Below are positions 37,300 to 62,680 of a DNA stretch of 64,000 bases, piece by piece. Each line of letters begins with the position of its first letter. The stretch's first letter is position 1. The notes under the pieces are model-generated. The model saw nothing but the letters and a program-made list of their open reading frames with translations, was not told the origin of the DNA and made no database searches. A program made the position numbers and the translations under genes. The stretch spans positions 62,001 to 126,000 of the forward strand of contig NZ_CABPSJ010000001.1 of NCBI RefSeq assembly GCF_902459745.1, read 5' to 3'. This DNA is from Pandoraea communis (lineage in GTDB: Bacteria > Pseudomonadota > Gammaproteobacteria > Burkholderiales > Burkholderiaceae).

Positions 37300-38331
37300 C
37301 TATTTGCTCAACACCCTGTGGAGCTTCTCGGCGCGCCGTGTGCCGGGTTGCAGCGACTGGAGCGGCAACTGACTGACCTTGCCACTGTCCTCGTACCGGC
37401 GCCGCAAGAGGTAGACAGGCCGACCCTTCGCCTCATCGTAGATGCGTCCGACATATTCGCCGACCACGCCGATACCGATGAGCTGAAGGCCGCCCAGGAA
37501 GAGCAGCGCGCTCAGCAGCGAGGCGTAGCCGGGCACGTCGATGCCGAGCACGAGCGTGCGCCCGACGATGAACGAGCCATAGAAGAAGGCAGCGAAGGCG
37601 ATTGACAGTCCGATGTAGGTCCAGCAGCGCAACGGCAGCGAGCTGAAGCTCGTGATGCCTTCGAGCGCGAAATTCCACAGGCGCCAGCCAGAGAACTTGG
37701 ATTGCCCCGCGCAGCGCGGCTGCCGCTCGTAGCGCAGCACGGCGGTGCGGTAGCCGACCCACGCGAACAACCCCTTCATGAATCGGTGCCGCTCGGGCAG
37801 ACGCTTGAGCGCCTCGACCACGCGCCGGTCCATGAGGCGGTAGTCGCCCACGTTCTCCGGCAACTTCACGTCAGAGAGCCGATTGTGCACACGATAGTAA
37901 AGGCCCGCCGTGACGCGCTTGGCCCACGAGTCGCAGACGCGGCTGCTGCGCTGCGCGAGCACGACTTCGGCGCCGTCACGCCATAGCTCGACCATCCTCG
38001 GAATCAACTGCGGCGGATCCTGCAGGTCGACGTCCATGGGGATCACGGCGTCGCCGCGCGCTTCGTCGATGCCGGCCGTGAGCGCGGCTTCCTTGCCGAA
38101 ATTGCGCGTGAGGTCGAGCACCCGGATGCGCGCGTCGCGGCGGCGGTGCGCGATGAGGCGCCCGAGCGTGTCGTCGGTACTGCCGTCGTTCACGCACACG
38201 ATCTCAAAGCGCGTGTCGGGCACCGCCTCGAGAATCGGCACGACGGTGCCGAAGAAGGCGTCGAGCGACTCGCTTTCGTTGAAGCACGGCACCACGAGAG
38301 ACAAGCGCTTGATGTGGATGGGTTTGCTCAT
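37300..38331 (-). CDS. GtrB/ArnC-like polyprenyl-phosphate glycosyltransferase
   Basis: 343 residues. The family 2 GT-A domain (about 1-230) has LSLVVPCFNESESLDAFFGT, DGSTDDT, VDLQDPPQLIPRMV (DxD region) and QRSSR. Two C-terminal membrane helices follow (SLPLRCWTYIGLSIAFAAFF and SLLSALLFLGGLQLIGIGVV). Such enzymes load a sugar onto undecaprenyl phosphate for transfer to lipid A, O-antigen or other glycans. It overlaps the PAP2 gene by 4 bases and is the last gene of that operon. Confidence 0.88.
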   Translation of the reverse strand: MSKPIHIKRLSLVVPCFNESESLDAFFGTVVPILEAVPDTRFEIVCVNDGSTDDTLGRLIAHRRRDARIRVLDLTRNFGKEAALTAGIDEARGDAVIPMDVDLQDPPQLIPRMVELWRDGAEVVLAQRSSRVCDSWAKRVTAGLYYRVHNRLSDVKLPENVGDYRLMDRRVVEALKRLPERHRFMKGLFAWVGYRTAVLRYERQPRCAGQSKFSGWRLWNFALEGITSFSSLPLRCWTYIGLSIAFAAFFYGSFIVGRTLVLGIDVPGYASLLSALLFLGGLQLIGIGVVGEYVGRIYDEAKGRPVYLLRRRYEDSGKVSQLPLQSLQPGTRRAEKLHRVLSK

Positions 38332-39263
38332 GATGTTTCCCCGGAAACTTGGCGCGTGGCTGCAAGCCCCCGCTCATGCACGGGCTCGGACGCGAGCGCC
38401 GGTGTGGGCAGCGAGGGGGTCTTCAAAGGGACGCCATGCCGGCGCGCGAGTTTGATGGCAACGATAGCCAGGGCGATGCCGGCAAGCACGTCGACGAGGT
38501 AGTGGCCGCCTTCGCTGAGCGTCGAGAGCAGTACCAGCGCGTTGAGCGGTGCAAGCACAGCGAACGCCGCCCGGCAGCGGCGCACCGCGTAGGCGAGCAG
38601 CACAGCCATGACGGCATGGAACGACGGCATCGAGATCAGGCCCTGCAAGGCCGACAGGTCGACTACGGTCAGGGTGTGGGCACGTAGCGGCGCAAAATGC
38701 GACAGCGTGGCCAGCTCGCCCGGCGAGCCCCCGAAATGGACGAAGGCGCCGGCCGCAGGGATGAGTCCCGAGATGGCGATGGTCGCCAGGCACGCGCCGG
38801 TCATTGCGTTGGCGAACTGGCGCAGCTCGGCGAAGCGTCCGGTGAACGACAGCAGCAGGACCACCAGCGCGATCTGTGGCATGCCGCTGTCATAGGCGAG
38901 CGGCAACACGAGCGAGAGCATGCGCGAGCCGCGCACGGTGGCGTGCCACGCCGTCCAGTCGAAGCCGAGACGCCCGTCCAGGGTGGCCAGCACCTGATCG
39001 ACGAGCGGTGCGCCGGTGGCGACCACGGCGTAGTCGAGCGCGGCGGCCGCGTGCGTGAAGACGATGAGGCCGATGACGTGGCCTGCCGCGGCACCGATGC
39101 GTGCATCGGGCCGGCACCACGTGTAGACGGCCCAAAGGCACGCCAGCGCCAGGCAAGCGAGTCCCGGCATGGCGAGGCTCGCCAGCTCGACGCCCATGCC
39201 GAGCCAGCCGAGCGCCAGGGCGGCGAGTGCCACCGTAGTCAGGTTGATCTGCAGCCAGTTCAT
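38328..39263 (-). CDS. PAP2-family membrane phosphatase/phosphotransferase
   Basis: 311 residues, about seven membrane helices. The PAP2 signature is present as SMPSFHAVMAVLLAYAVRR and GGHYLVDVLAGIALA, i.e. SxxxxH and H-x-x-x-D. The layout is like the Aur1/Ipt1-type PAP2 group rather than short BacA-like enzymes. It may recycle polyprenyl phosphate or transfer a phospho-headgroup, in line with the neighbouring polyprenyl glycosyltransferase. Its ATG overlaps the stop of the upstream GT87 remnant (ATGA), and its own end overlaps the glycosyltransferase start. Confidence 0.85.
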   Translation of the reverse strand: MNWLQINLTTVALAALALGWLGMGVELASLAMPGLACLALACLWAVYTWCRPDARIGAAAGHVIGLIVFTHAAAALDYAVVATGAPLVDQVLATLDGRLGFDWTAWHATVRGSRMLSLVLPLAYDSGMPQIALVVLLLSFTGRFAELRQFANAMTGACLATIAISGLIPAAGAFVHFGGSPGELATLSHFAPLRAHTLTVVDLSALQGLISMPSFHAVMAVLLAYAVRRCRAAFAVLAPLNALVLLSTLSEGGHYLVDVLAGIALAIVAIKLARRHGVPLKTPSLPTPALASEPVHERGLAATRQVSGETS

Positions 39264-39658
39264 GGCGACACCGCGTACATGTTGTCACCGCCACCATCGC
39301 CACCGTTGCCATGCGCCTGGCCGTGCGCGCACAGCCAGGCGATCAGGATTCCGAACCATGCCACATCGTAGTCATGGACATAGGGACTCATCAGCGACGC
39401 GGCCGAGAGCAGGGCCCAAGCGAGCCACAGCGGCGCATGCGCCATGATGAAAACGGATGGTATGCGAAAGCGATGGGCCTGCCCCGCGCTCGCGGCAGCC
39501 TGCGCACTCTGTACGCCGTGCAGGAAGCCCGTGATCGTCTCGGGGCCAAACACCACCACGCTGGCGGCCACGCTGAGCACGAGTGTCGCCAGACGACGCG
39601 GCTCGTTCCCCGACGGTTGGCGCGCGTGCACGACGTCGCCCGTGTCGCTCGTCTTCAT
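39260..39658 (-). pseudogene. remnant of a GT87 (DUF2029) mannosyltransferase
   Basis: 132 residues with two or three hydrophobic segments. VVVFGPETITGFLHG, RFRIPSVFIMA and LLSAASLMSPYVHDYDVAWF match the C-terminal third of GT87 membrane glycosyltransferases. The N-terminal 200+ residues with the catalytic site are absent, and an in-frame stop lies just upstream of the ATG. Residues expected between PSVFIMA and HAPLW also seem to be missing, as does most of the last helix. It still overlaps the PAP2 start in ATGA fashion, so it was the first gene of this glycan operon and may still be translated. I infer a deletion derivative. Confidence 0.6.
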
Positions 39659-39815
39659 GTCCCGGTCCCCGAATCATTGTTGTGGCTGCCGCCTCGACGT
39701 TCCATCGCGATCGGGCGCGATTCCCCAGGGCGGTCTTGGCGCACCGACGGCATAGACGCGTTGCGTGGCGGCACCTCATGCAGAGCATTGTTGGCACACC
39801 TTTTTAAAAATACAA

Positions 39816-39945
39816 CTAGGTGTTTATCCGAAATTAATCGACTAGGTGTTTATCCGAGATCAATCAACTAGGTGTTTATCCTCAATCAACTGACTAGGTG
39901 TTTATCCGAAATTAATCGACTAGGTGTTTATCCGAAATCAATTGA
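39816..39945. repeat. five tandem 26-bp repeats (iteron-like)
   Basis: The 14-mer CTAGGTGTTTATCC occurs five times, at 39816, 39842, 39868, 39894 and 39920, exactly 26 bp apart. The 12 bases between copies are related but variable (GAAATTAATCGA twice, GAGATCAATCAA, TCAATCAACTGA, GAAATCAATTGA). The array is AT-rich and lies between the glycan operon and the Tad locus. Regular spacing of about 2.5 helical turns suggests a multimeric DNA-binding site. TTATCC resembles part of a DnaA box; copy three (TTATCCTCA) differs from the perfect box by one base. Confidence 0.92.
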
Positions 39946-40740
39946 ATTTTCCACCCTAGAATTTTCCTTAGTTTCAGAAATGTTACGGATTACTTCATTT
40001 GCCGACGCAACGCTTTTCTACGTTTGCATGCCGTAGCTGGTCATTGCGACCCTGAAGATTTCGGCAAAGCGGCAGCGACTCTCCATCAATATCCTTTGCA
40101 CACCTGAAGTCGTTATCTGGCGGTGGCTCCGGCGAACCTATGCAGCGCGATGGGCGAAGGAAGCGAAGGCAATCTCAGCGCAGACCCTGTCAGCGAAAAC
40201 CCCCGGCGGCACGCATGCCAATCAAGGGTAATCCTTTAAATCTCAGGTACGGCTTTTCCCTGATTAAATCAGACATCCAGAATTAATTTTTAAATCAAAT
40301 CGATTTACCGGATGCCTGCGGCGATACGCGGACCGATTGAAATTACCTGGCGCGCGGCCTGATGTTTCATTTTTGAAACGTTTTTCCGCACCCGGCCGGA
40401 TTTGCCGTTGCCGGCGGGGATGGCTGGCACGTCCAAACCCGCATGCCCACGGCTTTTCACGTGAAGCTGGCCCGCCTCTTGCTCGATCCGGGGCGTGCCG
40501 CCAAGTCACGGGGCGGACGGGTCGAGAACAACACTGCGTCACGCGCATCTGATCCGTCCGAGCGAAACGAGGGTTTCGCATGATCGAACGGCCACACGGC
40601 TTAGCCGCTGCATCCGACAGGAGCACGGCAGGCCGACCGGGGGAATGAAATGTCGACACCAAGACATTCGCAGACCAGATACGCTGGGCACGCACGACGC
40701 TGTGTAGCAGCCAGACGTGCGTTCCGAGCGCAACCTCTCC
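39946..40740. other. gene-poor stretch upstream of the Tad operon
   Basis: No convincing gene. AT-rich patches near 39946-40010 and 40230-40320 stand out against GC-rich surroundings. A GTTTCA-TTTT-TGAAAC hairpin with a following GTTTTT lies at about 40364-40385. The Tad promoter is probably here or just before flp, but I see no clear sigma-70 or sigma-54 match. Confidence 0.4.
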
Positions 40741-40902
40741 ATGGCATTGCCGGTGCCGCGCGCCATCGCGCCGCGAGAGCCGGTGCCATCCCCTTTCGCT
40801 TCACGCCGCTGCGCACGCTGCGGCCAGCCCATCTTTGCGTCGCGGCACGCCAACGGCGCCGCCACGTCGCATCCCGAATCTGCCGCCTCCTGCGGCAGAT
40901 AG
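40741..40902 (+). CDS. candidate small zinc-ribbon-like protein upstream of flp
   Basis: 53 codons, high GC at third positions, ending 28 bases before flp. The peptide has RRCARCGQPIFASRHANG with a CxxC knuckle, two possible histidine ligands and one late cysteine. No family is recognised and no good ribosome-binding site is seen at the ATG; a GTG at 40717 is in frame. It could equally be a chance frame in the flp leader. Confidence 0.28.
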   Translation: MALPVPRAIAPREPVPSPFASRRCARCGQPIFASRHANGAATSHPESAASCGR

Positions 40903-40930
40903 CCCCTGCAATCTCATGAAGGAGTCTGTC

Positions 40931-41116
40931 ATGCAAGCCATTCTGACTTTCAGCAAGCGTTTTTTTCGGGACGAAAGCGGTGTCACCGCAGTCGAGTACG
41001 GCCTGATCGCGGCACTGATCGCCGTGGTGATCATCACCGCCGTGACCACGGTCGGCACGCAGTTGAACGCCACGTTCAGCAAGATCGGGTCGGCGTTGAC
41101 TTCGGCCAACGCCTGA
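40931..41116 (+). CDS. flp: Flp-type IVb pilin
   Basis: 61 residues, start behind GAAGGAG. The prepilin leader ends in DESG and the mature pilin begins VTAVEYGLIAALIAVVI, with the glutamate at mature position 5 and the Tyr next to it that are typical of Flp pilins. It is the main pilus subunit, cleaved by the prepilin peptidase encoded next and assembled by the Tad machinery. Being first and followed by a 170-base gap, it is probably the most strongly expressed gene. Confidence 0.95.
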   Translation: MQAILTFSKRFFRDESGVTAVEYGLIAALIAVVIITAVTTVGTQLNATFSKIGSALTSANA

Positions 41117-41284
41117 GCGTGCGGTCGGCTTCACCTGGTGATGGCGGGCCGGCCCGGCCGGTTCGCTGTCGACAGGCGATGCCTGGGGCAGCGCAGTCGC
41201 GTCGCCCCGGCAAAGATTCGAGGGGCCGCTGCCCTTTTTAGACAGTAGCCACGCGAAATGAACGGACACGAAGGAGACACAGCG

Positions 41285-41875: not shown

Positions 41876-41934
41876 CTTCGGACGCTCATTCTCATACGCA
41901 TTCACACCATTGCGCTCACACGGGGAACGGACCA

Positions 41935-43391
41935 TGACAAGTATGCAAACGGACTCGGCAAGCGTGGCGGCCACCACGCCGTGGAACCACGGTGCCAGCC
42001 ACGTGGGTGATGGTGCCGGCGTGCAGTCGATTCGCTCGGTCGCCGACACCGGGATCCCGCTGGCGCTGCTCGTCGACCTGGTCGGCAAAGTGGGCCTTCA
42101 GCGCGGCTCGATCTGCATGCTCGACCTGATGGCGGTGCTCAAGCTGCCGCTTAGCGTGCTCGACGAGGTCGTAGCGTTCGCGGTGCGCGAGCGCCTGATG
42201 GAAATCACGCATCGCGGCGCGCTCGACGCCGACGTGTCTCTGCGCCTGACCGACGCCGGCACCGCCCGTGCGCGCGAGTCTATGGCGCGCTGCAGCTACG
42301 CGGGGCCCGCCCCGGTCACGCTTGAAGATTACATACAGGCCGTGCACGCGGTGTCCGTGCGGCACCAACATGTCAACCACGCGTTCGTGAAGGACATTTT
42401 TCGCGACACCACACTCGACGCCCGCCTGCTCGACGAGGTCGCCTCGTCGCTCAACGCCGGGCGTCCGCTCATGCTGTTCGGCCCGGCAGGCAGCGGCAAA
42501 ACCTATCTGGCCGAGCGCCTCGGACTGCTGCTCGAAGGGCTCGTGCCAGTGCCGTTCGCGGTCTGCGTCGACAGCGAGATCATCCAGGTGTTCGACCCGC
42601 TGATCCACGAGGCGCTCGAGGGCGAGACACTGGCCGCCGTGTGCGCCAGGATCGATGCGGCGGGGGCCCCCAGCGTGCGCGACCGCCGCTGGCAGTGGTG
42701 CAAGCGCCCAGTCGTGGTCTCCGGCGGCGAACTCACGCTCGACATGCTCGAAGTGTCCTTCGACGCGGCCGCCGGTTTCTATCAGGCGCCGCCGCACCTG
42801 AAGGCCAACGGTGGCATCTACATCATCGACGACTTCGGCCGCCAGTTGGCATCGCCGCAGGCGCTGGCCAACCGCTGGATCATGCCGCTCGATCGCAACG
42901 TCGACGTCTACACGCTGCATACCGGACGGCGCTTTACCGTGCCGTTCGACGTCTGGACCGTGTTCTCGTCGAATCTCAATCCCTGGGAAGCCTGCGACGA
43001 AGCGTTCCTGCGCCGCCTGGGCTGCAAGCTCTTCGTCGGCCCGGTGGACGTTGCCGCATACCGCCGCATCTTCGACGCGGAATGCCATCGCTTCGGGATG
43101 TCGGCCGAAGCGGGTGCCTTCGCCTACCTGGCGTCCACGCTGCACGGCCGGTCGGCCACGCCGCTCATGGCGTGCTATCCGCGCGACCTGCTGGCGCTCG
43201 TCGATGCCGAGTGCCGCTACAAGGAATATCCGAAAGTCGTCACGGCCGACCGGCTCGACGAGGCGTGGCGGCGCTATTTCGACATGACTCACCGCCCGCG
43301 CCGGCACTCCGCCGGAACCGGCCCTGCGCACGGGCACCGAAGACGCAGCCCACGCCAAACCATTCGATCGTCACTGAGGAGCACATCATGA
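41935..43391 (+). CDS. AAA ATPase of unknown role in the Tad operon
   Basis: 485 residues. The N-terminal 110 residues look winged-helix-like ([20 protein letters not shown], then LKLPLSVLDEVVAFAVRERL). The AAA core has Walker A LFGPAGSGKTYLAE (near 185), Walker B GGIYIIDDFGR (near 300) and an arginine-rich sensor region. The C-terminal 30 residues are basic and low-complexity. Its stop overlaps cpaB by ATGA, so it belongs to the operon. It is not a standard Tad component such as TadA. A chaperone-like or regulatory role is possible; I do not assign one. Confidence 0.8.
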
Positions 43392-57388: not shown

Positions 57389-58453
57389 TCACGGCATGAG
57401 CACTGCCGGACGGTCGCGTCCGTGCCCGCCTGCGGCCTCGACCGACGGGCTGCGCGTCAGCAACGTTCCCAAGCCTCGCAGCAGATGCCAGGTCCGATCC
57501 GCCGCGACCTCGCCGGTCCCGGCCGTCCGGGCCGGCGGTTCCGCCCGGACGGCCTTCGGGTGGGGGGCGCCTTGCGCAACGGTGGTCGCGATCTCCCGGA
57601 CGGCCGGGCGAGGTGTCGATCTGCGCGGTGGCACTGGCTCGCGCCGCGGTGCGACGGTTTGCGGCACATTCGTGGCCCGCAAACGCGAGTATCCCGTCAT
57701 CACCTTGCGAACGTAGTTCTGCGTCTCGGGAAACGGTGGGATCTGACGCCCATAACGCAGCACAGCGCCTTCTCCCGCGTTGTAAGCAGCCAACACTAGC
57801 GACAGGTCGCCGTCGAAACGCGATAGCAACCAGCGGATGTAGGCCGCCCCGGCGCGCACGTTCTCTGCGGGATCTTCGAGACGCCTAACGCCAAAGCGCG
57901 CTCCCGTGCCCGGCAGCACCTGCATCAACCCGATCGCGCCTCGCCCGGACAACGCCTGCGGATCGTATCCCGACTCGACGTCGATAATCGCATGCAGCAA
58001 CGCTGCGTCGACCGACGCCACCTCGGCCGCGCGTCGCACCAGCGAATCGAACGGTAACGCTCGCGTGGCCGGTACGGGGGGTTGCGCGGGCGGCAAGGCC
58101 GAGGCGGGTGCCGATGCCTGGGCCGGTACGAAGGCCGAGGCCATCGCCGTCGCCGAAGCGGGTGCCGCCGGGGCGGATTCGCGCACTGCATCGGGTGCTT
58201 CCGGCACATCGGCGAGCCGGACATCGGGGGCAACACCTGCGTCTACAGGCGGCCGGGCCGGGCTCGCTGCGGCGCGCGGTTCGGGCACCAGAAGCTGAGC
58301 ATCGGCCACGCGCGGGTGAAGCGGCAGCAATGCCCGGTTGACGGCCAATGCGGGCATCGACAAACCCAGCAGGCTCAACACGATCAAGACACGTCGTAAC
58401 GCCTCGCGCCCGGGTGAGCGCAGGTGCGAAATCGGGCCAAGAGAAACGCTCAT
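57389..58453 (-). CDS. lytic transglycosylase of the type III operon
   Basis: 354 residues. An N-terminal hydrophobic segment (LRRVLIVLSLLGLSMPALAV) is a signal peptide. After a Pro/Ala-rich linker (about 40-135) the SLT domain has DVESGYDPQALSGRGAIGLM with the catalytic Glu, then AAYNAGEGAV. The C-terminal part is basic and low-complexity. It should open the peptidoglycan for the secretion machine, as IagB in SPI-1 or BapC next to Bsa. Its ATG overlaps the sctU stop by 4 bases. Confidence 0.88.
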   Translation of the reverse strand: MSVSLGPISHLRSPGREALRRVLIVLSLLGLSMPALAVNRALLPLHPRVADAQLLVPEPRAAASPARPPVDAGVAPDVRLADVPEAPDAVRESAPAAPASATAMASAFVPAQASAPASALPPAQPPVPATRALPFDSLVRRAAEVASVDAALLHAIIDVESGYDPQALSGRGAIGLMQVLPGTGARFGVRRLEDPAENVRAGAAYIRWLLSRFDGDLSLVLAAYNAGEGAVLRYGRQIPPFPETQNYVRKVMTGYSRLRATNVPQTVAPRREPVPPRRSTPRPAVREIATTVAQGAPHPKAVRAEPPARTAGTGEVAADRTWHLLRGLGTLLTRSPSVEAAGGHGRDRPAVLMP

Positions 58454-59610
58454 GCCCGCCTCCCATCGCCGGCACGCCCCGATGGGTCGCCGCCATCCCC
58501 TTCGTGAGGAGCTTCCGCTGGCTTCGCGTCGACGGTCTGCCCTTCCTGCTCGTCCTGCGCCGTTTGCACCTCGTACGGCAAATCGAGAGCGAGCCGCAGA
58601 ATGGCCGCGACGGCATCGAACAGATCGGCGGGAATCGGTGCATCGATCTCGACATCGCTCATCAGACGGCGCGCGACGGGCACATGCTCGACCACCGGCA
58701 CGCCTTCGCGTTCGGCGAGCCGGACAATCGTCCTGGCGCGCGCGTTACGGCCCTTCTCGATCACCAGCGGCACCGGTGTCTCGCCGGGCACATAGCGCAG
58801 GCAGATGGCAATGTGCGCCGGGTTGCGCACAACGGCGGTCGAGCGCTTCACGTTGTTCGACAGACTGCCGCTTTCAATCGTCTCCCGGTGAATGTCGCGC
58901 CGCTTGTTCTTGAGATCCCGGTTGCCTTCGACCTCCTTCGACTCGCGCTTGATCTCGTCGTGAGACATCCTCAACTGCTTGTGCAACTGGTATTTCTGAT
59001 ACGCGAAGTCGAGTCCTCCGAACACCACGTAGGCAACGACAAGCACAGACATCAGCCAGAACAGCAGCTTGGCCGTCAGGGCAATGCCACAGGCGGGGCC
59101 GCATTGCGGCAGCGCCGCGAGCGACGGCGTGTATTGGCGAATGAGGTAGAAGAAGACCATCCCCAGCACCCCGACCTTGACGAGCGACTTGCCGAACTCG
59201 AAGAGCGACTGCATCGAGAACAACTGCTTGGCCTTGGCGATCGGGTCGATGCGTTCGTACTTGGGACGAATGACCTCCGGGGCGACGAGCGCGCCCACTT
59301 GCAACACCATCGCAAGCCACGTCGTCACGATCAGCAGCAGCGCGAGCCCGCCGCCGAAACGCACCAGGAGCAGCAACGATGGCCCCAGCATGCCGCGCAC
59401 AGCATCATCCACCGGATCGTTCAGCACGAGCAGCATGCGCGACACGAGCCCCTCCATCGCGTGGTAAAGCGCGGGGCCTTCGAACGTCAGCCATGCGAGC
59501 ACCACACCGAGCTGCATGCACACGGCAAGGTCGGCGCTTTTCGCGACACGCCCTTTCGCGCGTTCGTCCTTGATCTTCTTGGGGGTAGGCGGCTGACTCT
59601 TCTCGCTCAT
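58450..59610 (-). CDS. sctU: type III export switch protein SctU
   Basis: 386 residues. N-terminus SEKSQPPTPKKIKDERAKGR is classical, followed by four membrane helices and a cytoplasmic domain. The autocleavage site reads VVRNPAHIAICLRY, i.e. NPAH (263-266) instead of the usual NPTH; the cleaved N-P bond is kept. The C-terminal 40 residues are acidic and Gly-rich. SctU switches export from needle subunits to translocators. Seven bases separate it from sctT. Confidence 0.95.
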   Translation of the reverse strand: MSEKSQPPTPKKIKDERAKGRVAKSADLAVCMQLGVVLAWLTFEGPALYHAMEGLVSRMLLVLNDPVDDAVRGMLGPSLLLLVRFGGGLALLLIVTTWLAMVLQVGALVAPEVIRPKYERIDPIAKAKQLFSMQSLFEFGKSLVKVGVLGMVFFYLIRQYTPSLAALPQCGPACGIALTAKLLFWLMSVLVVAYVVFGGLDFAYQKYQLHKQLRMSHDEIKRESKEVEGNRDLKNKRRDIHRETIESGSLSNNVKRSTAVVRNPAHIAICLRYVPGETPVPLVIEKGRNARARTIVRLAEREGVPVVEHVPVARRLMSDVEIDAPIPADLFDAVAAILRLALDLPYEVQTAQDEQEGQTVDAKPAEAPHEGDGGDPSGRAGDGRRA

Positions 59611-59617
59611 GCAGACC

Positions 59618-60460
59618 TCACGATGCGGGCAGCGTCAGCGCGGTCCAGGCGCGGAACACATCGGGTAAGCGATACCAGCCCGCGAGCGGCACCGCGACGG
59701 CAAACGGCAGGCTCGCCACGGTCACCAGCAGCGCCATCGCGCTTTTCACAGGCATGGCGAGGAAGAACACGTTGAGCTGTTGCGCCGCGCGGTTGACGAA
59801 ACCCATCGACATGTCGACCAGCACCATCACGACCATCGCGGGCAACGCGACGGCCACGCACATGACCTGCATCGCCTGCCAGAGCGCGAGCAGCCACGCC
59901 ACGCTGTCGTCGTGCCATTGCCATGGCTGTCCCACCGGCAACGCGACGTAAGAGGTGTACAGCGCGGTGAGCAGCGCATGCGCCGCCGGGGTGACGAAGA
60001 ACAGCACGCAGAGCATCTGCGTGAGGGCGATACCGAAGATAGACGACTGCGCTCCCATCAACGGATTGAGCACGCTCGCCATGGAGGCGCCTCGCATCGT
60101 GTCGATCACGTATCCCGTCATGTCGACGGCCCAGAACGGCAGCGCAGCGGCGAACCCCAGCAGCCCGCCGATGCACAGTTCGCGCAGAATCAGCACGCCC
60201 CAGGCCCCCCAGTGCGCGGGCATTTCCGGCGTGGCGTGCACCAGCGGCACGACCGGCAATGCGAGCGCGAGCACCAGCGCATTGCGCAACATACCGGCCC
60301 CGAGCATGCCGACGGAGAACACCGGCAGCAGCATCGCAATGCCCAGCGGGCGCAGCATGGCCACGCCCCACGCAACCAGCCAGCCATAGAGGTCGACCCA
60401 CAACGGCGAGAGCAACGTGTCGACGGCGGGGTCCATGCCCGGCACGAGAGAAGTCGCCAT
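59618..60460 (-). CDS. sctT: type III export apparatus protein SctT
   Basis: 280 residues, about eight membrane helices, FliR/SpaR/YscT family. Typical parts are RPLGIAMLLPVFSVGMLGAG, ELCIGGLLGFAAALPFWAVD and SMGFVNRAAQQLNVFFLAMP (the R-x-x-x-Q-x-N-V-F cap residues). ATG at 60460 fits the family start; upstream in-frame codons overlap sctS. Part of the R5S4T1 export gate. Confidence 0.93.
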   Translation of the reverse strand: MATSLVPGMDPAVDTLLSPLWVDLYGWLVAWGVAMLRPLGIAMLLPVFSVGMLGAGMLRNALVLALALPVVPLVHATPEMPAHWGAWGVLILRELCIGGLLGFAAALPFWAVDMTGYVIDTMRGASMASVLNPLMGAQSSIFGIALTQMLCVLFFVTPAAHALLTALYTSYVALPVGQPWQWHDDSVAWLLALWQAMQVMCVAVALPAMVVMVLVDMSMGFVNRAAQQLNVFFLAMPVKSAMALLVTVASLPFAVAVPLAGWYRLPDVFRAWTALTLPAS

Positions 60461-60465
60461 GCCGC

Positions 60466-60732
60466 TCACCGCATCCGGCTGATCTGCTCGAACGCGTTGC
60501 CCGCGTAATGCAGCAGTACGTGGCCCATCCACGCATAAGTGGCGGCGAGCGTGACCGACACGGCGATGAGCTTGATGAGGAACTGCACGGTCTGGTCCTG
60601 CACCTGCGTGAGCGCCTGCACCAGCGAGACGAACACGCCGACCACCGCCGCCACGACCACGGTCGGCAGCGACATGAGCAAGGTGAGCCACAACATCTCG
60701 CTCGTCAGATTGACGACGATGGCTTCACTCAT
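60466..60732 (-). CDS. sctS: type III export apparatus protein SctS
   Basis: 88 residues, two membrane helices: LTLLMSLPTVVVAAVVGVFV and LIKLIAVSVTLAATYAWMGH, joined by SLVQALTQVQDQTVQF. This is the FliQ/SpaQ/YscS fold that wraps the export gate. Tightly placed between sctR and sctT. Confidence 0.95.
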   Translation of the reverse strand: MSEAIVVNLTSEMLWLTLLMSLPTVVVAAVVGVFVSLVQALTQVQDQTVQFLIKLIAVSVTLAATYAWMGHVLLHYAGNAFEQISRMR

Positions 60733-60751
60733 CGGCGTGCTCCGGGGGCCG

Positions 60752-61402
60752 TCATGCGTACGAGAGCATCAACTGACGCACCAACTGCTCCCACCCGTTC
60801 ATCATCACGAAGATCAGCAGCTTGAACGGCAGCGCGATAGTCATCGGCGAGACCATCATCATCCCCATCGCGAGAAGAATGTTCGAGATCACCAGATCGA
60901 TCACGACGAACGGCAGATACAGCAGCAGGCCGATCTTGAACGCCTCGGCCAGTTGGCTCAGTGCGAAGGCCGGCATCAGCACGAGCAGGGAATCCGGCCC
61001 CAGACGATCGCGATGCGCTTCCGGCCACGTCTCGCCCGCGATGTTCGCGAAGAAGTCGCGTTGTCTCGCGTCGGTGTGACGCGTGAGAAACGCGCGGTAC
61101 GGCGACAGGATGCTTGCGTCGACATCGGCCACGAAGGTCTTGGACGACAGCGCCACAGGACGCGCCTCGAGATTCGCCTCGATGTCGAACGCCACCGGGG
61201 CCATGATGAAGCAGGTAAGCACGAGCGATAAGCCGTAAATGGCGATGTTGGGCGGAATCTGCTGCGTCCCCAGCGCATTGCGCAGCAGCGCGAACACGAC
61301 GGCCAGTTTCAGAAATGCAGTCCCCAACACCACCAGCAGCGGCATGATCGATAGCAGCGACAGCAACACGATGAGCTGCACCGGGTGGTCGAGCAGGGAC
61401 AT
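60752..61402 (-). CDS. sctR: type III export apparatus protein SctR
   Basis: 216 residues, four membrane helices. LGTAFLKLAVVFALLRNALG, QQIPPNIAIYGLSLVLTCFI and KIGLLLYLPFVVIDLVISNI with MGMMMVSPMTIALPFKLLIF are the FliP/SpaP/YscR signatures. ATG at 61402 matches the family start (SLLDHPVQLIVLLSLLSIMP). A 261-base gap separates it from sctQ. Confidence 0.95.
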   Translation of the reverse strand: MSLLDHPVQLIVLLSLLSIMPLLVVLGTAFLKLAVVFALLRNALGTQQIPPNIAIYGLSLVLTCFIMAPVAFDIEANLEARPVALSSKTFVADVDASILSPYRAFLTRHTDARQRDFFANIAGETWPEAHRDRLGPDSLLVLMPAFALSQLAEAFKIGLLLYLPFVVIDLVISNILLAMGMMMVSPMTIALPFKLLIFVMMNGWEQLVRQLMLSYA

Positions 61403-61663
61403 GCAGACTCCAATGAGCGTTGTTGGCCGCCCGATCTGCATGCCTGTCGGCGTCGATAACGCGGGAGGACGCAGAACGAAGCAGGACAAATCGGCTGGAA
61501 GAGGTCACCGCGCGAACGCGCGACGATGCGCCAGGCAGACAGACGATCGCGCATGGCGGCGACAGCACGAGCGATGTTAGGTCGCCACCGGATGCACGCC
61601 CATCGGGTCACGACCCGAAATCTCGCCGGGCGGATCGTCGCAGGCCGGCAGGCCATGCCCACG
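61403..61663 (-). other. gap between sctQ and sctR
   Basis: 261 bases in an otherwise packed operon, with no frame that I recognise. It contains a TCGGGTC-GT-GACCCGA hairpin near 61605-61620. It may be a remnant of sctQ sequence. Confidence 0.4.
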
Positions 61664-62680
61664 CTATGCGCCGTTTTTTTCGTCGATATGCACTGCGAGC
61701 CGCCCGTCTTCGAATCGCAGCAAACGCCCGCTGGCCCACGGCAAGCGGGCGTGCCAGAGCGCGATTCGTCCGGCATGCAGCGCGCATGTCGTCGTCTCCC
61801 GATGCGACGCCACGGGCACGCCCGAGCGCCAGGCCATCAACAACGGAATGGGAAATCGCCTCTCGGCAACGACGGCGAACCACCGGGCGGTGTCCGTGTG
61901 ATCGAACTGCACGACATGGCGATCGGATGGCTGGCCATCGCACATGGCGACAGCGTAGTCGCCATCCACCAGCCAGTACTCGCCCCGCTCGATATCGGCC
62001 GCCACGTCGAGGAGGACGGCATCGCCCGCATGCAGGTCGTCGCATTGCGTTGCAGGCAACGCCACCCATCCCGCCACGAGCACGCACTGGCGCTCAGGCC
62101 AGCCCGCCGGGTCCAACGGCACATCGCAAGGCGTCGCCCGTCGGCAGCGCTCGCGCAGCCACGCGTGCGCCCCATCGAGGTAGGTCAGCGCCAACTGACG
62201 CCCCTCGCGCTGCAACACCATGCCGACGCGCCATGTCGTCTCGACACATTCACGCGACAGGGCCGTCGCACTTGGCCACGTTGATGTCTCGCAAGCGTCG
62301 AGCCGCGTCTCGCGAGCGGCATCGTTCGACGTGCCGCCGTTCAGATCCATCAAATCGCGCCTCTCACCGGCGCCCCCCGCCGCCAGCGTAAGCGACGCGG
62401 CGCTCGCGTGCCAGGCTGGCGGAAGGTCGTCCCATGACGGCACCGGCAAGCTCGCAGCAAGCCAGTCGCACCACTGCTGCGCATCGCACCAGAAGCGCGT
62501 CTGGCCGATCACACCTTCGTCGACGCGCGCGGTCACGACAAGGCCGTCGCCCCCGGCACGAAGCCACCCGACGCGTACTTGCGTATCGCTTTCGACGAAG
62601 GTCAGACTGCCCTCGCTTGTGAGCAGATCGTCCAACGGCCCCGGGGAGACCGTCGGCTCGGTGGTCGACTCATGGCGCAT
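61664..62680 (-). CDS. sctQ: type III sorting-platform protein SctQ
   Basis: 338 residues, SpaO/YscQ-like. The N-terminal part is divergent. The C-terminal 80 residues (RRFPIPLLMAWRSG, then ASGRLLRFEDGRLAVHIDE) read like a SPOA domain with a weak middle. Identity rests on operon place (between sctP and sctR) plus that ending. SctQ makes the cytoplasmic pods of the secretion machine. It overlaps sctP by 11 bases. Confidence 0.75.
   Translation of the reverse strand: MRHESTTEPTVSPGPLDDLLTSEGSLTFVESDTQVRVGWLRAGGDGLVVTARVDEGVIGQTRFWCDAQQWCDWLAASLPVPSWDDLPPAWHASAASLTLAAGGAGERRDLMDLNGGTSNDAARETRLDACETSTWPSATALSRECVETTWRVGMVLQREGRQLALTYLDGAHAWLRERCRRATPCDVPLDPAGWPERQCVLVAGWVALPATQCDDLHAGDAVLLDVAADIERGEYWLVDGDYAVAMCDGQPSDRHVVQFDHTDTARWFAVVAERRFPIPLLMAWRSGVPVASHRETTTCALHAGRIALWHARLPWASGRLLRFEDGRLAVHIDEKNGA

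Follow-up and report, generated by a model that had tools for sequence, protein, structure and literature searches.

Introduction

Homotypic clusters consist of several near-identical regulator-binding sites that lie in one direction upstream of a -35 element. Plasmid iterons are direct repeats of ~20 bp, set at constant steps and in one direction in A+T-rich DNA. The array of 26-bp repeats described here, found in a 64,000-nucleotide stretch of the Pandoraea communis genome (the window), resembles homotypic clusters in having several near-identical sites of one direction beside a promoter, but its period does not equal an integral number of helical turns and the protein that would bind it is putative. 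Like iterons, it consists of direct repeats at constant steps, in one direction and A+T-rich, yet it has no Rep gene in the scanned neighbourhood, occurs in one or two copies in relatives and lies in a chromosomal promoter setting. It shares with bacterial minisatellites, or VNTRs, a copy number that varies between relatives at one locus, although the comparison made here is between species, with one genome each, and not between strains.

The nearest studied case that we looked at is nadA of Neisseria meningitidis, which has a promoter repeat of changeable length; the length of the tract is reported to alter the spacing of NadR operators (PMC2791445). Both loci have a variable-length tandem repeat in the promoter region of a surface factor, with regulator sites around it in nadA. 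The nadA repeat is a simple-sequence tract that works by operator spacing and not by copies of one operator, whereas here the 26-bp unit is itself the conserved element and the variation is seen between species (PMC2791445). The array adds an example to a known kind of element, the tandem repeat within a promoter region. A literature search for promoter tandem repeats in Pandoraea returned nothing about this array in titles and the starts of abstracts, and the papers on promoter repeats among the matches listed were, by title, general or about other organisms.

Results

Five 26-bp units in exact register

The sequence CTAGGTGTTTATCC occurs exactly five times in the window, always on the plus strand, at 39816, 39842, 39868, 39894 and 39920, in steps of exactly 26 bp. 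Beyond these five sites the window holds no place at up to two mismatches and one at three; at up to three mismatches, chance would supply 1.06 matches, and a total of six was reached in 0 of 100 shuffles. Tandem Repeats Finder placed the array at 39815-39942 with a period of 26 and a score of 200, against 60 for the runner-up among its 11 rows, which makes it the strongest tandem repeat of the window. Both the exact-match count and Tandem Repeats Finder bear out the five tandem repeats at exact 26-bp steps reported by the first-pass annotation, a reading of the letters that preceded this work. In register, five full units span 39815-39944:

39815..39840, minus strand: unit 1 (type A), which shares its outer base 39815 with a candidate -35
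39841..39866, minus strand: unit 2, differing from unit 1 at 3 linker positions
39867..39892, minus strand: unit 3, differing from unit 1 at 5 linker positions
39893..39918, minus strand: unit 4, identical to unit 1
39919..39944, minus strand: unit 5, differing from unit 1 at 2 positions; column 21 is C, and AATTTT follows the unit

The identity of units 1 and 4, noted in the same annotation, was recovered in this in-register comparison. Typed by column 21 (A for T, B for C), the units run A-B-B-A-B. At 10.5 bp per turn, 26 bp corresponds to 2.48 helical turns, which would place every second unit on about the same face. The "exact phasing" originally described therefore holds for the steps themselves and not for helical phasing of neighbours, and cooperative stacking of neighbouring units is not implied by the spacing.

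An RNA function for the array was considered and rejected, as its folds were no better than those of shuffles on either strand (z 2.37 on plus, -0.11 on minus). In a search of 39200-41200 against Rfam at E <= 1, mir-2071 at 40827-40879 was the single match (E 0.12; 20.9 bits, where the gathering score is 100), and it was taken as chance.

The array adjoins a candidate promoter of a divergent glycan operon

When 32 genomes of the genus were searched with the DNA of 39260-40960, five gave matches, one of them the present genome (G000); the relatives, compared at one genome per species, are G013 and G021, which are close, and the more distant G008 and G029. To the left of the array, the following features are read away from it:

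39810..39815, minus strand: candidate -35 TTGTAT, 3 of 6 consensus bases in G000; TTGATA in G008 and TTGAAA in G029
39787..39792, minus strand: candidate -10 AACAAT, with a 17-bp spacer in G000
39260..39658, minus strand: first gene, remnant of a GT87 glycosyltransferase, 132 aa, with its start codon at 39658; 435 aa in G021 and 431 aa in G029
38328..39263, minus strand: second gene, PAP2_3 family protein (Pfam), intact
37300..38331, minus strand: third gene, family 2 glycosyltransferase (Pfam Glycos_transf_2), presumably GtrB/ArnC-like, intact

Read toward the glycan operon, the repeated element is CGATTAATTTCGGATAAACACCTAGT, and its final T is the first base of the -35. In this direction G000, G013, G008 and G029 all present the core GGAKAAACAC, four bases, TTG, 18-22 bases and ACAAT. 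Of 398 family genomes searched for the pattern GGAKAAACAC-N4-TTG-N(18-22)-ACAAT, 4 have it, always at this locus, and a control pattern gave 0 matches; G021 was missed because its first core base is A and not G. The distance from the core to the -35 is equal in both clades, and CATTGTT, which holds the candidate -10, is present in all five species. When the ~740-bp intergenic stretch was scanned for sigma-70 promoters, the sole site in G008 was TTGATA-18-AACAAT and in G029 TTGAAA-18-AACAAT, each beside the unit, with 0.7 and 0.6 sites, respectively, expected by chance. The same scan listed none in G000 across 39260-41120, where TTGTAT-17-AACAAT falls below its limit. The element thus lies at a promoter, in a position conserved across species, with the promoter being a sequence match that in G000 is under the limit of the scan. 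Units 2-5 continue upstream of this candidate promoter, beyond unit 1.

The operon itself had been described as decayed, which fits its first gene and not the other two. The GT87 gene has shrunk by in-frame deletions to 132 aa in G000 (~70% lost) and 227 aa in G013 (about half lost), with the frame and both ends kept in each; neither protein retains a GT87 match at E <= 0.01, and those of G021 and G029 do match. Its dN/dS is 1.16 between G000 and G013 (81 codons); comparison of these two with G021 gives 0.45 and 0.48, and the intact G021 and G029 genes give 0.29. For the PAP2 gene dN/dS is 0.20-0.27 within the three close species, and for the family-2 glycosyltransferase gene it is 0.10-0.16. 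Both genes look to be under purifying selection, and there would therefore still be an operon to regulate.

Relatives carry one or two units at the same place

Alignment of the orthologous intergenic regions shows that the place of the array holds five units in G000, two in G013 and one in G021. The alignments with G013 and G021 extend across the entire intergenic region; other indels there are unrelated, the largest being of 32 bp near flp. In the more distant G008 and G029, which share the divergent layout with PAP2 and flp in the same order and a GT87 gene between them (a profile match in G029, assigned by eye in G008), the equivalent place holds one diverged unit each, CAAGTCAGTGTTTCTCCnAAAnAATC against CAACTAGGTGTTTATCCGAAATTAATC. 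The place of unit 1 is therefore occupied in all five species, by a diverged unit in G008 and G029. Local alignment with the G000 unit plus promoter located these diverged units 145-200 bp before the start codon, at scores equalled by 1 of 1000 shuffles in G008 and 9 of 1000 in G029. With the unit alone the corresponding counts were 1 and 41 of 1000, the latter being weak, and the tests in G008 and G029 are not independent because the two species are related. PAP2 protein matches at E <= 1e-50 are confined to 5 of 299 family genomes, the same five species, and no further species could therefore be added to the comparison.

Copy number at this locus, as in a regulatory VNTR, thus differs between relatives. 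The outermost units of the G000 array resemble, in the same order, the pair of units in G013: type A, with T at column 21, comes first, and type B, with C there, comes last. Unit 5 and the last G013 unit are alike both in this C and in the AATTTT behind it. The succession A-B-B-A-B in G000 suggests repeated use of an A-B block of two units. Since G008 and G029 each have a diverged unit at the corresponding position, the 26-bp element appears to be older than the array, and from these alignments the array is well supported as an in-place amplification of a single ancestral element.

Variation among units is confined to the linker

Among the five G000 units, 7 of 26 columns vary, all within 11 neighbouring columns, and columns 1-15 (ACTAGGTGTTTATCC) are constant. 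Clustering this tight arises in 0.85% of random draws (P 0.0085). With the units of G013 and G021 added, 8 variable columns fall within 12 (0.53% of random draws, P 0.0053), and the sole core change among the eight units is at the last core base, in G021. A core that is kept beside a linker that varies is the pattern of an array of regulator sites, and it favours a kept core ACTAGGTGTTTATCC, with the qualification that the P values of 0.0085 and 0.0053 rest on few changes among units that share descent.

The same observations have to be weighed against a neutral tandem repeat, in which slippage duplicated a single site that works, or once worked, and the additional copies have no effect; the duplications would then be recent, and the few changes would have landed in the linker by chance. 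The copy numbers of 1, 2 and 5 in close relatives and the identity of units 1 and 4 are in keeping with such an origin. Its strongest point is that the multi-copy species are those with deletions in the first gene, where dN/dS between G000 and G013 exceeds one. G000 units differ pairwise at up to 6 positions, however, all outside the 15-bp core, and the probability of such clustering by chance is only ~0.5-0.9%. We regard neutral amplification as a serious rival, if a rather unlikely one.

The Tad pilus operon has its own candidate control elements

On the other side of the array lie the Tad pilus genes, preceded by two further elements:

40363..40380, plus strand: inverted repeat TGTTTCA-N4-TGAAACG, in five species (CGTTTCA in G021), candidate flp enhancer site
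40468..40483, plus strand: sigma-54-like promoter TGGCCCGCCTCTTGCT of the Tad operon, one mismatch to the consensus, kept in five species
40931..41116, plus strand: flp pilin gene (Flp_Fap, Pfam)

The consensus of sigma-54 promoters is TGGCACGNNNNTTGCW; elsewhere in the window, the same rule yields one one-mismatch site (47278, minus strand, inside a Tad open frame) and seven two-mismatch sites. In each of the five species the inverted repeat TGTTTCA-N4-TGAAAC precedes the TCACGGGG block of the leader by 143-144 bp; in G000 it ends ~88 bp before the sigma-54-like promoter. The two are likely to be the enhancer site and the start of flp transcription. No enhancer-binding regulator was recognised among the Pfam-scanned neighbour proteins. 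In a sulfate reducer, Tad-like pilus genes are reported to be among the targets of a sigma-54-dependent regulator (PMC3333781). A literature search for Pandoraea with the tad pilus had a Delftia review, by title, as its only match.

The first-pass annotation had proposed, as one of two possibilities, that the array regulates flp. Control of the flp promoter from upstream, at a distance or by looping and possibly coordinating both operons, would suit an array in the intergenic region common to the two, and the divergent layout and the element have been kept together in five species. Against this, the end of the array is 524 bp away from the sigma-54-like promoter that flp itself has, flp also has an inverted repeat at a kept leader distance in five species, and the units touch the other promoter, that of the glycan operon. 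We consider flp control quite improbable. Because unit 1 abuts the glycan -35 and the sigma-54-like promoter is so distant, we assign the array to the glycan operon: judged by position, it more likely belongs there than to flp. What stands of the earlier proposal is, in part, the regulatory array, and not its target.

Several other features of this side were observed. Directly behind the sigma-54-like promoter, 40490-40579 (plus strand) is a possible structured leader in five species, with 92.5% of cells paired and a covariation score of 0.358 that was reached by 0 of 500 shuffles; slid versions paired at most 46.7%. Pair changes on both sides were seen in 6 of 24, a count reached by 61 of 500 shuffles, and mostly split two clades. 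The fold energy is unremarkable in G000 (z -1.76) and has a z of -3.27 in G029, and the leader is without an Rfam match at E <= 1. Run over 32 genomes, a covariance model based on the five leaders recovered its own members by construction (E below 1e-10), and with them three others with E 0.1-0.9. At ~41900-43390 (plus strand), between the prepilin peptidase and CpaB genes, lies a protein whose AAA match is weak (E 3e-4) and falls below the curated cut-off, and open frames resembling it were seen by eye at the same place in G013 and G021. Open frames at 57389-62680 (minus strand) resemble, by eye, type III secretion export apparatus genes.

The 26-bp unit was found at this locus only

The array had also been read as a possible relic of a replicon. 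Its direct repeats are roughly of the iteron length class, and the TTATCC string had been called part of a DnaA box, for which the consensus is TTWTNCACA. The five units do not each come within one mismatch of that consensus, as their TTATCCnnn sites depart from it at 2, 3, 1, 2 and 2 positions, and in the diverged G008 and G029 units the corresponding string is TTTCTCC. Region 39660-40960 had no match among 72,556 plasmid records, 39780-39980 had none among 50,697 phage records, and the number of viral contigs with two exact cores was 0. Neither a Rep gene beside the repeats nor repeats shared with plasmids or phages were found, and no replication initiator was present among the 19 Pfam-scanned proteins (16 from the window and 3 from relatives); the one ParA/CbiA match among them lies in the Tad gene cluster. 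Relatives hold one or two units at the same chromosomal place, with G021 having a single unit between matching flanks. That the array descends from the iterons or DnaA boxes of some plasmid or another replicon accordingly has next to no probability, and the DnaA assignment is not supported.

The annotation had suggested a search for the repeat 14-mer in genomes and plasmids. The 14-mer is present in at least 113 stretches of public genomes; the 80 stretches listed have one match each, are scattered over unrelated phyla, and were taken as chance. At up to one mismatch it occurs in 13 of 32 genomes of the genus, with those of G000, G013 and G021 at this locus. Six others (G001, G002, G004, G006, G009 and G027) carry CTAGGGGTTTATCC in one shared other intergenic context, by eye beside a kdgT-like permease gene (only L124 was translated); G014 and G019 carry CTAGGGGTTTATCC in a second context, and a third context, in G007 and G031, has another one-mismatch form. 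These near-matches of ten genomes were rejected as unrelated. Of 249 family genomes, 2 have the exact core as a tandem pair, namely G000 and G013. With two mismatches allowed, the unit pattern, which then misses unit 3 of G000 and the G008 unit, gave 8 matches in 4 of 5 genomes, all at this locus, and 0 control matches.

Within G000, the motif had 7 other matches at up to two mismatches versus 8 for a reversed control, which is no excess. Further sites of the same regulator were likewise absent from the five genomes at up to two mismatches, a search that would overlook a degenerate site or a regulator acting only locally; with no second unit site, no regulon is visible. Single-target regulators do exist, and further genomic sites are usual for a regulator but not strictly defining. 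No regulator was recognised among the 19 Pfam-scanned proteins, the 16 from the window lying between 36541 and 54986. Nucleoid proteins need no unique motif elsewhere and would therefore explain the missing regulon: the array could be a nucleation site for a silencer of H-NS/MvaT type or for IHF, in an A+T-rich island and with no dedicated regulator. The fall in G+C to 34-37% in the array stretch, versus 61-73% in the coding DNA to its left, agrees with this, but the fixed 15-bp core and fixed -35 distance probably exceed what such a protein would need, and we give nucleoid-protein binding a small probability.

Discussion

We favour, at somewhat better than even probability, the explanation that the array arose by in-place tandem amplification of an ancestral 26-bp cis element abutting the -35 of the divergent glycan operon promoter. 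The element is likely to be a regulator site of that promoter, with protein binding being putative, and the most likely role of the array is that of a multiplied putative regulator-binding site of the glycan operon. The core would be the site of a transcription factor, either activator or repressor. Slippage or unequal recombination probably produced the copies, the extra units would add sites further upstream, and copy number may set the strength of the operon response. More tentatively, and with well under even confidence, we propose that a single site beside the -35 of a surface-glycan operon is being multiplied in steps (1, 2, 5) as a dial for glycan expression next to the Tad pilus operon, read by a putative regulator with one genomic target. 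The competing explanations are not mutually exclusive, and their probabilities need not sum to one.

Several observations count against the favoured explanation, namely the weak G000 promoter, the lack of a visible regulon, the lack of a regulator among the scanned proteins and the opposite helix faces of neighbouring units. In addition, the multi-copy state is found only in G000 and G013, the two species with a truncated first glycan gene, which fits relaxed constraint equally; this coincidence of multiplication and GT87 shrinkage involves five related species and does not amount to a test.

If the copies are neutral, the locus would be an ordinary minisatellite in a promoter region. If amplification of a regulator site is correct, control of the glycan operon would be separate from that of the adjoining Tad pilus, and three close species would offer a natural series of 1, 2 and 5 copies, at one place, for promoter tuning by site copies.
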